Source: Halorubrum tebenquichense DSM 14210
Lineage (GTDB): Archaea > Halobacteriota > Halobacteria > Halobacteriales > Haloferacaceae
Length of the DNA: 64,000 nt
Assembly: GCF_000337415.1 (NCBI RefSeq)
Contig: NZ_AOJD01000045.1
Coordinates: 1 to 64,000, forward strand
Direction: 5' to 3'
This document shows positions 7,670-32,377 of the stretch, in pieces (the stretch's first letter is position 1; each line of letters starts with the position of its first letter). Position numbers and translations under genes: made by a program. Below the pieces are notes generated by a model. The model was not told the origin of the DNA and did not search any database. It saw only the letters and a program-made list of their open reading frames with translations.

Positions 7670-7940
7670 TTATAAACTGCTGATCGACACGGACACCGCC
7701 TCGCGACTGCCCCTTCGAGTCCCGCCCGCAGCAGCACCGCACCTCACGCCTCCCCAGCCTCGTCGGCCGCGTCCGTCGGGCTCCCTTCGGTCGCCCCCGT
7801 CGCGGCCGACTCCAGCGGGGGACCGGAAGGTCCCTCTGGCAGCCGGCGCGTAGCGCCGGCGACCTCGCGCGGCGCTACTCGCGGCCGCCTTCGGCGGCCG
7901 CTCGCAGGCGCGCGCCACCGCACAGTGTGTTCAGTTATAA
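7670..7940 (+). repeat. Dispersed structured element, copy A (lacks stem P1)
   Basis: One of four intergenic relatives (others at 16313, 36406, 58977), all in the same orientation. It runs from a TTATAAAC box to a TTATAA box. Shared blocks: TCGCGACTGCCCCTTCGA, CCTCACGCCTCCCCAGCCTC and GCGCGCCACCGC. Stem P2 pairs GTCGGCCGCG (7762-7771) with CGCGGCCGAC (7801-7810). Stem P3 pairs GCGGCCGCC (7881-7889) with GGCGGCCGC (7893-7901). Two further hairpins (GGGACC/GGTCCC type and GCCGGCGC/GCGCCGGC) lie between. The left-hand P1 hairpin of the other copies is missing, as if deleted between short repeats. Open frames across it look spurious. Confidence 0.85.
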
Positions 7941-26540: not shown

Positions 26541-26698
26541 TCGCCCGACTCGGACGCCCCGATCCCCCGGCCCGGCGCGCCGGTCGGCCGACGAGACGAC
26601 CCCGACGCCGCACCGCCCGAGGTGTGACGTTTTTATGCGCCCGCGGCGAACCGAGTCACAGATGGACCGAGTACGCGCGCCCGCGTTCGAGCGGGGTG

Positions 26699-27877
26699 AT
26701 GTCGGTGGGCGCTGACGGCGATTCTCCCGCCGGATCCGACGCCGCGAGCGACGACGCCGCGCCCGTCGTCGCCGGCTTCTTCTCCGGCTGTGGCGGGCTC
26801 GATCTGGGCTTCGAACGGGCCGGCTTCGACGTCGCCCTCGGGAGCGACCAGTGGGAGCCGGCCGCCGAGACCTACCGCCGGAACTTCTCCGACGTGGGGT
26901 TCGTCGAGGAGGACGTCCGCGAGCTCGACGCCGCGGCGATCCGCGAGTCCGTCGAGCGCGCCGGCTACGACCCCGGCGGCGTTGACGTGGTGATCGGCGG
27001 TCCGCCGTGTCAGGGGTTCAGCCGGCTCAACAACGAGCAGATCGAGCTCGACGAGATGGAGAAGGACCGCCGGAACACGCTGTTCGAGGAGTTCCTCCGC
27101 GTCGTCTCCGTTCTCGAACCGCAGCTCGTCTTGATGGAGAACGTCCGCGACCTGATCAACCGCCAGACCAGCGACGACCGGTACGTGAAAGACCTCATCG
27201 TCGACGAGTTCGCGGCCCACGGCTACAAGTGCGAGTACCGGGTGCTTGAGGCCGAACAGTACGGCGTCCCCCAGAAGCGCCGCCGGATCTTCTTCATGGG
27301 CACCGACCGCGACGTGCCGATCCGGTTCCCCGAGCCGACGACGCCGGAGGGGAGCTGGCGCACCGCCGGCGAGGCGCTCGCGGACGCGAGCGACGACCTC
27401 CCGAACATGACGTACGCGAACACCGGCGAGAAGACGCTCGAACGCATCCGCCACGTCCCGCCGGGCGGCTACTACCGCGATCTGCCGGACCGGCTGAAGA
27501 CGAAGAAGTACCGCTGCGACTGCGAGGACACCGACACCTGTCCCCACGAGCCGGAGATCGTCAAGCGCTACGGCACGTACCTCCGCCGGCTCCACCCCGA
27601 GGAGCCGTCGCTGACCGTGAGCACCAACGTCTTCATCCACCCGCACGAGGACCGCTATCTCACCCCCCGCGAGATGGCGCGGCTCCAGACGTTCCCCGAC
27701 GAGTTCGCCTTCGAGGGGACGAAGACCGACGTGCTGAAACAGATCGGCAACGCGGTCCCGGTCCGACTGGGCGAGGAACTGGCCACCCAGATCCGGGAGT
27801 ACTTCCCCGAGGTCCGCGACGCGCCCCCCGCCGACCCGGACGTCTACGAGCAGCAGTCGCTGACTGACTTGGCCTGA
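26699..27877 (+). CDS. DNA (cytosine-5) methyltransferase
   Basis: A 392-aa Dcm-type enzyme. Motif I FFSGCGGLDLGFERAGF (27-43) binds SAM. Motif IV GGPPCQGFS carries catalytic Cys104. Motif VI ENV is at 147-149, motif VIII QKRRR at 192-196, and motif X GNAVP at 350-354. The target-recognition region (about 200-320) has an unusual C273-C275-C281-H283 cluster that may bind zinc. G+C and acidity match the host, so it is long resident. It ends 55 bases before the convergent nuclease gene, suggesting a restriction-modification pair. The recognition sequence cannot be read from the sequence. Confidence 0.92.
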   Translation: MSVGADGDSPAGSDAASDDAAPVVAGFFSGCGGLDLGFERAGFDVALGSDQWEPAAETYRRNFSDVGFVEEDVRELDAAAIRESVERAGYDPGGVDVVIGGPPCQGFSRLNNEQIELDEMEKDRRNTLFEEFLRVVSVLEPQLVLMENVRDLINRQTSDDRYVKDLIVDEFAAHGYKCEYRVLEAEQYGVPQKRRRIFFMGTDRDVPIRFPEPTTPEGSWRTAGEALADASDDLPNMTYANTGEKTLERIRHVPPGGYYRDLPDRLKTKKYRCDCEDTDTCPHEPEIVKRYGTYLRRLHPEEPSLTVSTNVFIHPHEDRYLTPREMARLQTFPDEFAFEGTKTDVLKQIGNAVPVRLGEELATQIREYFPEVRDAPPADPDVYEQQSLTDLA

Positions 27878-27932
27878 GATCGTATTTCACTATACGTGTG
27901 GGCGACCAGCGATGTGTAGCTCGTTTATCTAG

Positions 27933-29084
27933 TTACTGTGGTGGCCATCTCTTTTCAAATAAGAAATCATCTGCGTAATTTATTCGAGGACTGTTCTTTT
28001 TCGGAGGCTCTACCCTCAATGATATTGATTCGTTGAACGCATCGTCTGGTATGAGATACGTATCTATCTCCTCTGGATGCCCGATTACGTAGAAGTCAGC
28101 CGTCTCCGTGACGGTAAATCGTAATAAACCCCCTTCGAGCCAAGCGGACTCAACTCGGAGACAGAATTCGTTGTTTTCTCCCTCAACGATAATTGTTCGT
28201 CCATCGTCACAGTCTGCTTGTACCGATGGTGTGTATCTATCCGACTCTACCATCTTGACCGCCTTCGATGCTAGCGGGATTGAATCGGGCGTCTCTGAGG
28301 GATTCACGACCGGCGGCCAATTGTTCTCGAACGCATAATCGTCTGCTAGCTTTGCTCTTGACGGGTCCTCGCAACTCTCTTTTCTCCGAAGTGAGACCGA
28401 TTCGTCAAACTCCGCTCCGTGGACCGAAAAGACCTCATCGAGTGATTCGCAGTGAAGCAAATAGTAGTCCGCTGTAGACTCTAAGCTACTTCTGATCCGG
28501 TTATCAACTTGCCAAGCCCTCTCGATACCGATCTTGGTAACATCTCCAGTTCTGTCTTCTACAAAGACTGCTCTTCGTCCTTCGTCCTCTGAATTGACGT
28601 ATACTGGTACGTCCTCTTGGCGAAGCATCTCAATGACCTTCGACTCAATCGTATCTGAGCCGTTTCCAGCCACTACCGGCCATTGCTCTTCTAGTTGGTA
28701 CTCTTCAGCCCAGTTGACCTGTCTCGTCTCCTTGTCGGCTGGCTCCACTCGCAGATACATTGATGTCCCTACCTCAGAACTGGGCACCAAATACGTCTGA
28801 TCTGTATCGTAGCAATAGACGACAAAACAATCGATATCCTCTCCGTATTCCTTATAGGTGTGGCCCGAACCGTTTGTGTGCTGGCTCAGCCCGTTGAATC
28901 GGATCGTCCCGTTTTTTAACCGACCAGTTTTGATTTGCGCTCTTAACAGGTCTCCCTCGGGTTGTTCGATAATGACATCGTATCGCTCGTTGTCTCCAAC
29001 AGGCGTGGAGACGCTAATTTCTCGCCTCTTTAATTCCGTAATGACAATCTGCTCGGTTAAATCACCGCGTCGGTGCGATTCCAT
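27933..29084 (-). CDS. Three-module PD-(D/E)XK endonuclease (group I intron endonuclease-like family)
   Basis: A 383-aa protein, clearly poorer in G+C than its neighbours. Module 1 (about 5-138) matches the family named group I intron-associated PD-(D/E)XK endonuclease: RRGDLTEQIVITELKRREI, then D36 in YDVII and Q50-x-K52 in AQIKTGRL as active site. Modules 2 (about 142-259) and 3 (about 264-382) repeat the same end pattern, such as SISLRVEPPKKNSPRINYAD and ENNWPP/EKRWPP, but the Q-x-K position reads GIE or RVE, so they should be inactive. No intron is visible, so I infer a restriction-like role with the convergent methyltransferase. A homing or stand-alone nuclease is the alternative. Confidence 0.8.
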   Translation of the reverse strand: MESHRRGDLTEQIVITELKRREISVSTPVGDNERYDVIIEQPEGDLLRAQIKTGRLKNGTIRFNGLSQHTNGSGHTYKEYGEDIDCFVVYCYDTDQTYLVPSSEVGTSMYLRVEPADKETRQVNWAEEYQLEEQWPVVAGNGSDTIESKVIEMLRQEDVPVYVNSEDEGRRAVFVEDRTGDVTKIGIERAWQVDNRIRSSLESTADYYLLHCESLDEVFSVHGAEFDESVSLRRKESCEDPSRAKLADDYAFENNWPPVVNPSETPDSIPLASKAVKMVESDRYTPSVQADCDDGRTIIVEGENNEFCLRVESAWLEGGLLRFTVTETADFYVIGHPEEIDTYLIPDDAFNESISLRVEPPKKNSPRINYADDFLFEKRWPPQ

Positions 29085-29109
29085 AACTACTGTCTTTTGC
29101 TATATCTTG

Positions 29110-29117
29110 TATTAATA
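29110..29117 (-). promoter_or_regulatory. TATA box for the nuclease gene
   Basis: TATTAATA lies 26-33 bases before the nuclease ATG on its coding strand, fitting a leaderless haloarchaeal promoter. Confidence 0.5.
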
Positions 29118-29153
29118 ACATTTGTATATTCGCAAACTACGTGACGATTACAG

Positions 29154-29163
29154 TATATAAATA
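29154..29163 (+). promoter_or_regulatory. TATA box for the 67-aa gene
   Basis: TATATAAATA is centred 29 bases before the ATG at 29187. It supports that ATG, rather than the GTG three codons earlier, as the start of a leaderless mRNA. Confidence 0.6.
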
Positions 29164-29186
29164 CTCGTTCGCTTCTTGTGGAACGT

Positions 29187-29390
29187 ATGGCCCGTACTCG
29201 CGCCCCGCTCACCAAGACTGAGAGGAATCACCTTCGCTCAGAAGACGCCAATTCACAACGATATCAGGCGATTTCGGGGATTCGAAGCCGTATCAATGAC
29301 GAACTGACTACCGATATCGACACTCTTCGAGAACACCATCCGGAGCTATCCGAGGAACTGCGCGAAACTGTCTGTGACGATGTGAAATGA
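29187..29390 (+). CDS. Small haloarchaeal protein divergent from the nuclease
   Basis: A 67-aa, almost all-helical charged protein: MARTRAPLTKTERNHLRSED, then SQRYQAISGIRSRINDELTTD and LREHHPELSEELRETV. I recall similar short proteins in other haloarchaea, often near mobile or accessory genes, without known function. It shares the 100-base AT-rich promoter region with the nuclease gene and ends four bases before the tRNA-Pro gene. A role as a small regulator of the nuclease is possible but unproven; no helix-turn-helix is clear. Confidence 0.65.
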   Translation: MARTRAPLTKTERNHLRSEDANSQRYQAISGIRSRINDELTTDIDTLREHHPELSEELRETVCDDVK

Positions 29391-29393
29391 ATA

Positions 29394-29464
29394 TGGGGCC
29401 GCTGAGAGTCGAACTCAGGTCCACTGCACCCAAGGCAGCGAGGATACCACTACCCCACGGCCCC
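29394..29464 (-). tRNA. tRNA-Pro (TGG)
   Basis: A 71-base cloverleaf on the minus strand. The acceptor stem pairs GGGGCCG with CGGCCCC, discriminator A. The anticodon loop CTTGGGT gives TGG. The T-arm is CTGAG TTCGACT CTCAG. It closes the accessory stretch that begins at tRNA-Phe. CCA is not encoded. Confidence 0.95.
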
Positions 29465-29511
29465 GCACCCCTACCTACCCCGAAGAGGCGCTAAAGGGTT
29501 TCGTTGCGATG

Positions 29512-31566
29512 TCACTCCTCGTCGTCGCGCCGTTCGAGGTCGGCGACGATGTCGTACGGGTCCGTCCCCTTCCTGACCGAGTCGAGGATGAAGAACGCCT
29601 CGTCGGGCGCGAGGAAGTGCCTGGTGACCCCCCGACCCAGCGGCGTCGGCTCGAAGCCGTCGATGAAGTTCCACTCCAGCAGCTTCCCGAGCGCGTGTTT
29701 CGTCGGGATCTCGCCGATCATCCGGTCGTTGAGTCGCTTGGCCTTCTTGCCGGCCACGACGACGTTCGCGAGCGTCTCCTCGGCGGCCGCGGTCTCGTCG
29801 TAGTGGGTCGCCACGTCCTCCATCTCGCCTTTCAGCAGGGTGAACGCGACCTCGTCCTCCGTCCGGTCCATCGAGCCGTGGTAGACGCCGTCGGGCTCGA
29901 CGAGGAGGTAGACGCGGCCGCGGTCGTGGTAGTCCGGCCGCCCGGCGCGCCCGAGCATCTGGGAGAACTCCTGGACGGAGAGCCACTCGATCCCCATCGC
30001 CAGCGAGTCGAAGATCACCTGCGAGGCGGGGAAGTCGACCCCGGCCGCCAGCGCCGCGGTGGTGACGACCGCCGAGAGGTCCTGGTTCCCGAACTGGCGC
30101 TCGACCTTCTTCCGGCGGCCGTAGTCGAGCCCGGCGTGGTACGGCGCGGAGTCGTACCGGAGCTTGCGGCTGATCTCGTGACAGCGCCGCCGCGAGTTCG
30201 TGAAGATGATCGTCTGCCCGCGGTACCCCTTCGACGACTTCGTGTCGAACTCGCGTTTCACCAGCTTGTCGGCGATCTGCGCCTTCTCGCGGCTGTCGGC
30301 GAAGGTGACGTGTCGCTCGATGGGAACGGGGCGCTCCTCGTACTCGATGAGCGTCGCCCGGAGCTGCTTCGCGAGCCACTCGGGGTTCCCGACGGTCGCC
30401 GAGAGGTAGACGAACTGGGTCCCGTCGTAGCCCGAGTGCGTCTCCATCCGGTTCTCGCTGTAGTACTTCAGCCGGGAGATGAGCCCGTCGAGCCGGTGGC
30501 CGCGCTCGCCCTCCTTCAGTGTGTGGACCTCGTCGATGACGACCGTCCCCACGTCGCCGAGGTCCTTCCCGGTCCGGAGCGCGTGGTCGATCCCCTCGTA
30601 GGTGCCGACGATCACGTCGGCGTGCGGGTCGAACCGGTTGCCGTCGTCGTTCACCCGCGAGGAGCCGACCCGGATGGAGACGTCGAGCAGGTCGCCGTAG
30701 CGGTCCTCGAAGTCCTCGTGCTTCTGGTTGGCGAGCGCGACGAGCGGGACCAGAAAGAGGAGCTTCCCGTCCCCCTTCAGCGCGCGGTCGATCCCGGTCA
30801 GCTCCCCGACGAGCGTCTTCCCCGTCGCGGTCGCCGACACGACCAACTGGTCGCCGCCGTCGAGCAGGCCGTTCCGCACGGAGAGGCTCTGGACGGGGAG
30901 CAGCTCCTCGAACCGCCCCTGAAGCTTCGCGGACAGGTCCGGGTGGAGGTCAAGGTCCTCGGTCCGCACGGGACTCACGTCGTCGACGTTCGCGGAGACC
31001 TCGTCGTACTTCGTGAGGTCGGGGTCGAGTCCGCCCTGAAGCAGGCTCACGATCCGGTCTAAGTCGCCGGACTCGTACAGCAGCTCCTCGAGGCGCTCCT
31101 CGGCCGCGCCCGTGAACTCGCCCTTGTAGGACAGCTCCCGCTCCAACTCCCGCCGGGCGCAGTCCCGGCAGATCAGCTCGCCGTTGTGTTCGACCGCGTC
31201 CTCGCTCGTGATCGGGCCGTACCGCCCGTCGCTCGCGCACCGCCGGCAGGTCCGCACGGTGAGCGAGTCCAGCTGGTAGCCGTCGAGCATCGCCTCCAGC
31301 CGCTTCCGGTTCTCGGGGGCGGTCTGCTCGGAGATCCGGATGCGGTCGGCCGCCCGCGCGAGGTCGACGAACTCGTCCGGCTGGCGGGGATGGTCCTCGC
31401 CGTCGCGGATCACCCGGAACTTCCCCGGGCGCGGGCCGGCGGACGTATCCTTGAGTTCGAGCCGCCCGCGGAGGACCCGACTCCCGTCGCGGTTCGCGAC
31501 GACGGTGTAGTCGCTCCGCGACTCGTGGAGGAACAGCGTCTCGACCTCGGCCAACTGCTGTGACAC
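29512..31566 (-). CDS. DEAD/DEAH-box helicase with N-terminal DUF5814-like region
   Basis: A 684-aa superfamily 2 helicase. The N-terminal 200 residues carry a small beta domain, then a zinc-finger-like CRRCASDGRYG...CRDCARRE. RecA-like domain 1 has Walker A SATATGKTLVGEL (about 255-270), DEVH in VVIDEVHTLKEGE, and YLSATVGNP. Domain 2 has TIIFTNSRRRCHEIS, VVTTAALAAGVDFPA and EFSQMLGRAGRPDYHDRG. The motifs resemble the Ski2/Hel308 group. A role in DNA repair or RNA processing is inferred; the exact one is unknown. The gene follows tRNA-Pro by 47 bases in the same direction (its stop lies nearer). Confidence 0.88.
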   Translation of the reverse strand: MSQQLAEVETLFLHESRSDYTVVANRDGSRVLRGRLELKDTSAGPRPGKFRVIRDGEDHPRQPDEFVDLARAADRIRISEQTAPENRKRLEAMLDGYQLDSLTVRTCRRCASDGRYGPITSEDAVEHNGELICRDCARRELERELSYKGEFTGAAEERLEELLYESGDLDRIVSLLQGGLDPDLTKYDEVSANVDDVSPVRTEDLDLHPDLSAKLQGRFEELLPVQSLSVRNGLLDGGDQLVVSATATGKTLVGELTGIDRALKGDGKLLFLVPLVALANQKHEDFEDRYGDLLDVSIRVGSSRVNDDGNRFDPHADVIVGTYEGIDHALRTGKDLGDVGTVVIDEVHTLKEGERGHRLDGLISRLKYYSENRMETHSGYDGTQFVYLSATVGNPEWLAKQLRATLIEYEERPVPIERHVTFADSREKAQIADKLVKREFDTKSSKGYRGQTIIFTNSRRRCHEISRKLRYDSAPYHAGLDYGRRKKVERQFGNQDLSAVVTTAALAAGVDFPASQVIFDSLAMGIEWLSVQEFSQMLGRAGRPDYHDRGRVYLLVEPDGVYHGSMDRTEDEVAFTLLKGEMEDVATHYDETAAAEETLANVVVAGKKAKRLNDRMIGEIPTKHALGKLLEWNFIDGFEPTPLGRGVTRHFLAPDEAFFILDSVRKGTDPYDIVADLERRDDEE

Positions 31567-31702
31567 TGCCGTTCGGTACGCGAGCGAGGTATTTCAGGAG
31601 TTCGGCTCGGGGGTCGCGGTCGCGGCGCGCCCGCGAGGACAGCAGCTACGCGGAACGGTCGCACGGAGAAGAACCCGCCTCACGGACGGGGGCGTCGCGT
31701 CG

Positions 31703-32233
31703 TTACGAGACGAGCAGCTTCTCGCCGCGGTCGACCGTGATCCGGCACGGCGGCGAGAGCTTGTTGTACGCGCGGCGGAACGCCTCCTTCACGACGGCGG
31801 CCTGCTCGACGTCGCAGTACGCCGTGAAGACCACGTCGTCCTTGTTGAGCCGGGCCGCGGTGCCGACCGGCTTGCCGAACGCCTGCCGCATCCCGTCGGA
31901 GACGCGGTCCGCGCCGGCACCGGTCGCCTGCTTGTTCTCCCGGATGACCTGGTGGGGGAACTTCCGGAGGGTCATCTTGTAGTTGCCCTCGCCGAGCTCC
32001 TTGATCAGGTGGCGGTTCGCCGAGAGGCGCGCGCTCTCAAGCGAGCCGTGTCGCACCTGAAGCTCCTCTTCGACGCGGAGGCTGATCTGGACGGGGTAGT
32101 CGTCCGGCTCCGCGGTGAGGTCGCCCATGTTGTGCTGCGCGATCTTCGAGCCGGGGATACCCGTGATGTACTCGCGGCGGGTGTACGACGGCTTGTCGAT
32201 CGTCCGATACATAGAGGCGGGTTTGTCAGACAT
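31703..32233 (-). CDS. rpl10e: 50S ribosomal protein L10e (uL16 family)
   Basis: A 176-aa ribosomal protein of the large subunit, near the 5S rRNA and the tRNA elbow. The start [20 protein letters not shown] and the pattern [14 protein letters not shown]-like, [20 protein letters not shown] and [15 protein letters not shown] are diagnostic of archaeal L10e. Length is standard. It stands alone, upstream of the helicase gene, with a TATA box close by. It is highly expressed in all archaea. Confidence 0.97.
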
Positions 32234-32265
32234 GGCTACTTGTCCGATGTAGCCGCCGCTGCGGC

Positions 32266-32272
32266 GATAAAG
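32266..32272 (-). promoter_or_regulatory. TATA box for rpl10e
   Basis: GATAAAG on the plus strand reads CTTTATC on the coding strand, 33-39 bases before the L10e ATG, leaving a leader of about ten bases or fewer. Confidence 0.45.
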
Positions 32273-32377
32273 CCTTCGATAGCGAGGCGTTCCCGTCGGC
32301 CCGTTCGGCGTCGACGAGGGCGCTCGGCCCGGTCGCGGTGCGTGTTGACACGCGGGTCGGCTCGCTCCGCGGTCGGC

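Follow-up and report, generated by a model that had tools for sequence, protein, structure and literature searches.

What is the role of a DNA-cutting enzyme of the salt-loving archaea in which a single live catalytic module is followed by two burnt-out copies of itself, and why does this gene nearly always lie beside one particular transfer-RNA gene, that of proline with the anticodon UGG? The question is raised by a gene found in a 64,000-nucleotide stretch of Halorubrum tebenquichense DSM 14210 (assembly GCF_000337415.1, contig NZ_AOJD01000045.1, positions 1 to 64,000 of the forward strand), referred to here as the window. The original prediction, made from the sequence alone, described the product as an endonuclease of one active and two degenerate PD-(D/E)XK modules, a layout for which it knew of no described precedent, and suggested that the dead modules could serve as DNA-reading arms or as a built-in pseudo-trimer. 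The gene and its surroundings are composed of the following parts:

27933..29084, minus strand: nuclease gene, 383 aa, GC 0.489 in a window of 0.701
28677..29084, minus strand: module 1 (residues 1-136), intact PDDEXK_5 domain with E11, D36, Q50, K52, and the QHTN loop
28929..28979, minus strand: catalytic stretch D36 ... Q50-x-K52 of module 1
28833..28892, minus strand: QHTN loop (residues 65-84) of module 1
28314..28661, minus strand: module 2 (residues 142-257), degenerate copy, D36 to A, Q-x-K to G-I-E, QHTN loop lost
27942..28295, minus strand: module 3 (residues 264-381), degenerate copy, D36 to T, Q-x-K to R-V-E, QHTN loop lost
29187..29390, plus strand: orf70, small divergent gene between the nuclease and the tRNA, phrog_26393 (halovirus) family
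29394..29464, minus strand: tRNA-Pro(TGG), allele A, the only tRNA-Pro(TGG) among the 46 tRNA genes read of this genome
29512..31566, minus strand: SF2 DEAD-box helicase gene, the conserved flank used for the empty-site and tree comparisons
26699..27877, plus strand: C5-cytosine methyltransferase, convergent neighbor, with a distribution independent of that of the nuclease

The first step is to establish whether the three modules are real, and the observation in the original prediction is confirmed. Residues 1-131 match Pfam PDDEXK_5 (PF11645) at E 6.6e-36 and the sequence of PDB 2OST, the homing endonuclease I-Ssp6803I, at E 1.3e-4, with module 1 scoring 123.8 bits and the full protein 146.1 bits against a gathering cut-off of 26.1. 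Residues 142-258 and 264-382 are degenerate copies, which, when searched as single sequences, fall short of this cut-off, with 19.8 bits for module 3 and no PDDEXK_5 hit for module 2, while single-sequence searches of the tails against NCBIfam and a search of the tail profile against the PDB sequences returned nothing. Their homology rests on profile comparison, in which profiles built from eight orthologues and aligned with hhalign gave probabilities of 98.3-99.3% for modules 2 and 3 (98.6-99.0% for module 3) against active modules, whereas the reversed controls gave at most 6%. In the opposite direction, an HMM built only from tail modules recovers the active module of this very protein at E 1.8e-31, together with single-module relatives across the class. 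Chance repeats are thus rejected as an explanation of the tails.

The catalytic residues of the tails have been lost. Across 33 catalytic modules, E11, D36, K52, H69, T70, and N71 are invariant and Q50 is kept in 32, while across 34 tails Q50 is never kept, K52 is K once, E11 is E twice, and D36 is kept nine times. The D ... Q-x-K site of the I-Ssp6803I type is present in module 1, but is replaced by A ... G-I-E in module 2 and T ... R-V-E in module 3, and an intact second active site, which had been named beforehand as grounds for rejecting the layout, was not found in any of the 34 tails. One feature absent from the original prediction is that all the tails also lack 8-15 residues of the loop that carries QHTN, which has 20-21 residues in module 1 and 5-12 in the tails, although they retain a C-terminal Arg (R112) and the final Trp-Pro. 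Structure prediction was based on shallow alignments (2 and 4 rows), and the AlphaFold model of the protein, built from only two sequences, is weak (pLDDT 51, pTM 0.30), but shows the same order of secondary-structure elements three times. Foldseek ranks the four chains of 2OST first for this model, and VIA-align places its residues 263-372, that is, module 3, on 2OST chain C with Z 8.6 over 103 residues at 4.2 A. An AlphaFold model of the tails alone was also weak, and a fold search with it gave no significant match.

The three-module layout is not isolated, but is the end of a series of one, two, and three modules found within one clade of the haloarchaea. In a sample of 391 genomes of the class, nine carry the three-module form (eight Halorubrum and one genome of another family, G305) and 17 a two-module form, while others have one module, and a search of the genus added one more Halorubrum, giving nine of 52. 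One of these (genome G224) has lost codons 1-103 of the nuclease through a deletion, around position 7840 of its locus, which also removed the start of orf70 but left both tails open and the methyltransferase intact. Another (G197) has an early in-frame stop, while two further genomes (G072 and G203) keep only relics of a tail. The tails evolve faster than module 1, with 35-40% identity against about 70% between the two Halorubrum groups, but they remain under purifying selection, with dN/dS of 0.14-0.39 (0.14-0.30 for module 2 in the pairs that were not saturated) against 0.08-0.17 for module 1, which rules out the view that they are simply decaying. The module tree does not resolve whether the tails arose through one duplication or several.

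The next question is what accompanies the nuclease. On its 5' side lie orf70, tRNA-Pro(TGG), the DEAD-box helicase, and ribosomal protein L16/L10e, while the convergent methyltransferase lies on the 3' side, although the gene calls in the GC-rich flanks rest on a rough scoring devised for this analysis. In other genera, the helicase and the MCM gene are often near, but the constant neighbor, missed by the original prediction and the best clue to function, is tRNA-Pro(TGG), which is found on the same strand, 37-458 bp 5' of the nuclease start (310 bp in the window), in 32 of 33 loci with one, two, or three modules. The exception (locus L052) has a short sequence like a tRNA-Pro 3' end upstream. 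Locus L001 is from Halorubrum sp. Hd13. A scan of positions 26600-32300 with Rfam found no group I intron, with only the tRNA above its cut-off, and the tRNA-Pro gene has no intron, so that this nuclease, in contrast with I-Ssp6803I, is not encoded within a self-splicing group I intron. The small divergent orf70 belongs to a virus/mobile-element protein family (phrog_26393), seen at 12 further loci and in the halovirus records Humcor1 and HJTV-4, which is also found beside restriction-like genes, and is the divergent partner of the tRNA-Pro nuclease in three families.

The link with tRNA genes extends to the wider family. Forty single-module relatives outside the tRNA-Pro clade, taken from the sequence search roughly in rank order, were examined, and 36 have a tRNA gene within 450 bp while one lies inside a tRNA gene, where about 1.9% would be expected from 47 tRNA genes in 3.33 Mb. 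In a tree of the catalytic domain, the tRNA-Pro, -Asp, -Lys, -Asn, and -Arg loci fall into five single clades, one per isotype, with four changes in all against a mean of 31.6 in shuffled labels. Relatives at four distinct phage loci, in Pectobacterium phage My1, Halorubrum virus HRTV-15, Acinetobacter phage Herod, and Klebsiella phage cp19, also adjoin tRNA genes, although searches of a collection of viral contigs and of plasmids returned no relatives.

Introns are a recurrent feature of some of these loci. In genome G021 (locus L140, about 624-1146 in the orientation of the match), the nuclease ORF lies inside a 451-nt intron of tRNA-Lys(TTT), at the usual anticodon-loop position and with no group I intron match, and may represent an archaeal tRNA-intron homing endonuclease. 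Most other tRNA-Lys loci of this clade have introns of 19-40 nt, as read by ARAGORN, at the same position, one of which folds like an archaeal bulge-helix-bulge intron. Short introns were recorded at nine such tRNA-Lys loci and at three tRNA-Arg loci next to single-module genes. Intronless tRNA-Lys is the rule in the class and in the genome of the window, occurring in 336 of 391 genomes, but in none of the 12 known to carry the nuclease of the tRNA-Lys clade. This pattern is not uniform, however, given that the nuclease of the tRNA-Asp clade mostly sits between identical, or near-identical, intact tRNA-Asp copies (as at 11 of the loci), and half of the tRNA-Asn clade loci examined have intronless tRNA.

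Within Halorubrum, two forms of tRNA-Pro(TGG), which differ at 18 of 70 positions, divide the genus, with allele A in 16 genomes and allele B in 35, none with both, and one incomplete genome with neither. The nuclease is found in 9 of the 16 allele-A genomes and in 0 of the 35 allele-B genomes (p 3.8e-6, or 6e-7 when the G072 relic is included), while six allele-A genomes have no nuclease, and one more (G072) has only the relic. Nuclease-free loci, such as those of G206 and G011, keep the helicase and the tRNA, with other sequence 3' of the tRNA. On the tree of the flanking helicase gene, alleles A and B are scattered (six changes, against a shuffled mean of 6.3), and a single clade for allele A is rejected (p-AU 1.65e-7), which indicates movement relative to the flank, although the helicase gene may itself recombine. 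The D- and T-arms of allele A equal those of the host tRNA-Pro(GGG), as if made by gene conversion, so that allele A may be a chimera.

Given this, the explanation that best fits the evidence, and which is held with moderate confidence, is that of a free-standing homing endonuclease of the I-Ssp6803I (PDDEXK_5) type, resident at, and probably aimed at, the tRNA-Pro(UGG) locus, which suggests a selfish element that spreads by targeting tRNA genes. The analysis itself demonstrates the architecture of one active and two degenerate modules, the near-invariant placement just 3' of tRNA-Pro(TGG), the presence/absence polymorphism at a fixed site between the tRNA and the downstream gene, the exclusive association with allele A in Halorubrum, the discordance between this haplotype and the tree of the flanking gene, and the placement of the sister clades at other tRNA genes. 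Everything that concerns mechanism is inferred, that is, that module 1 cuts DNA at the nuclease-free locus (the tRNA gene or its 3' junction), that repair from the donor copies allele A, orf70, and the nuclease together, that allele A is resistant, and that the dead modules enlarge the assembly or its DNA contact. Some observations weigh against this view, as allele A, orf70, and the nuclease are physically linked, which means that their association may be hitchhiking, and the independent pairs on supported branches (three) were too few for a test. The allele-A genomes without a nuclease (six, and one more with only a relic), the intronless tRNA-Pro, the lack of a group I intron in the region, and the uneven site protection in the other clades also count against it, while the conserved neighbors (the helicase, and MCM in other genera) would allow a simple reading by synteny.

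The interpretation of the dead modules in the original prediction is only partly supported, since the active-plus-degenerate layout is right, but the D2 tetramer known for the family, in I-Ssp6803I and the SPARDA DREN domain, makes a pseudo-tetramer or larger pseudo-oligomer likelier than a pseudo-trimer. In this view, the two dead modules would stand in for the non-cutting subunits of the tetramer, in which two of the four subunits hold substrate (PMC12205087). Dimers of the two-module proteins would then have two active and two passive modules, whereas a dimer of the present protein would have two active and four passive ones, and would grip a longer stretch of DNA. As the tails lack the QHTN loop, if they touch DNA, they do so differently from module 1.

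The alternative that survives best is a stronger form of the same explanation, a natural cleave-and-rescue gene drive in archaea, which remains possible, but tentative. In this case, the nuclease would destroy the native, single-copy tRNA-Pro(UGG) gene of its host lineage (allele B), and would travel with a recoded tRNA-Pro (allele A) that it cannot cut and that keeps the cell alive, while the wider family would apply the same principle to other tRNA genes, with introns as shields. The combination of nuclease and allele B is absent, and allele A without the nuclease exists, as expected of a resistance allele, while the divergence of the two alleles, the single tRNA-Pro(TGG) found in this genome, the arms shared with tRNA-Pro(GGG), and the apparently random pattern of the alleles on the helicase tree are also in keeping with this reading. 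However, linkage over 310 bp can explain the association without any function, all nine carriers share one identical allele A, so there may be a single origin, and other genera with the nuclease carry different tRNA-Pro sequences, some of which are B-like. The tRNA-Asp and tRNA-Asn loci also indicate that shielding by intron or recoding is not general.

It is less likely that the nuclease is merely a passenger, with tRNA-Pro acting only as an insertion hotspot or syntenic neighbor, and the protein doing something else there, such as defense against viruses. The low GC of the cassette (0.49 against 0.70) is consistent with this possibility, as is the affiliation of orf70, other copies of which sit in defense and provirus islands. 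The tRNA fragments next to the site in genomes G006 and G153 look like old integration scars, and the partial tRNA-Pro-like fragments beside the intact gene at two nuclease-free Halorubrum loci, between the helicase and the methyltransferase, suggest repeated past integration at this site. There is no integrase in the cassette, however, and a passive hotspot does not predict that each nuclease clade keeps to one tRNA isotype or that phage relatives also lie at tRNA genes.

A replication or repair nuclease working with the helicase and MCM encoded next door is very unlikely. The helicase lies within about 6 kb on the same strand in most loci and MCM is downstream in many other genera, but the nuclease is patchy (nine of 52 Halorubrum), evolves rapidly (48% identity where the helicase keeps 94%), and is linked more closely and constantly to tRNA-Pro than to either helicase. 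Least likely of all is a type II restriction-modification pair with the adjacent C5-methyltransferase, which is not supported despite the convergent arrangement in the window and three relatives and the retention of the methyltransferase beside the truncated nuclease of G224, given that the methyltransferase is in 25 of 52 Halorubrum genomes and the nuclease in nine, together in only four (Fisher p=1.0), with five carriers lacking the methyltransferase.

The importance of this protein lies in the capture, within one clade and at one locus, of a series of one, two, and three nuclease modules with loss of catalysis in every added copy, which makes the question of why dead nuclease modules are kept directly testable. 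The link with tRNA extends the tRNA-gene habit of I-Ssp6803I to a family that spans archaea, haloviruses, and bacterial phages, and predicts a target for each clade, while no description of tRNA-linked PDDEXK_5 nucleases in haloarchaea was found in the literature searched, which leaves out most subscription papers. If allele A proves resistant, it would be a natural counterpart of engineered cleave-and-rescue drives.

Among the known systems, the closest is the PD-(D/E)XK homing endonuclease I-Ssp6803I of Synechocystis (PDB 2OST), which belongs to the same Pfam family, has the same D ... Q-x-K type of active site, is linked to a tRNA gene, being encoded in a group I intron of tRNA-fMet (PMC1995217), and is the best fold match of the model, including module 3. 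I-Ssp6803I is a homotetramer of one module (150 aa) encoded in an intron, however, whereas the present protein is free-standing, has three modules in one chain, and sits 3' of tRNA-Pro in an archaeon. The SPARDA DREN nuclease domain shares the PD-(D/E)XK fold, the D/Q/K catalytic residues, and a D2 tetramer like that of I-Ssp6803I (PMC12205087), but belongs to a short-Argonaute defense system, degrades DNA collaterally, and has no tandem dead copies. SegB of the T-even phages is likewise a free-standing homing endonuclease associated with tRNA genes, which acts through recombination (PMC13096335), but it is phage-borne and has an unrelated GIY-YIG fold, with no preference for a tRNA isotype reported. 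The single-module PDDEXK_5 proteins of haloarchaea and haloviruses are of the same family and are also found at tRNA genes, but lack tail modules and occur at other isotypes (Asp, Lys, Asn, and Arg). The archaeal tRNA splicing endonucleases with degenerate repeats, although RNA endonucleases of a different family and function, provide a precedent in archaea for tandem active and inactive nuclease repeats that make pseudo-oligomers.
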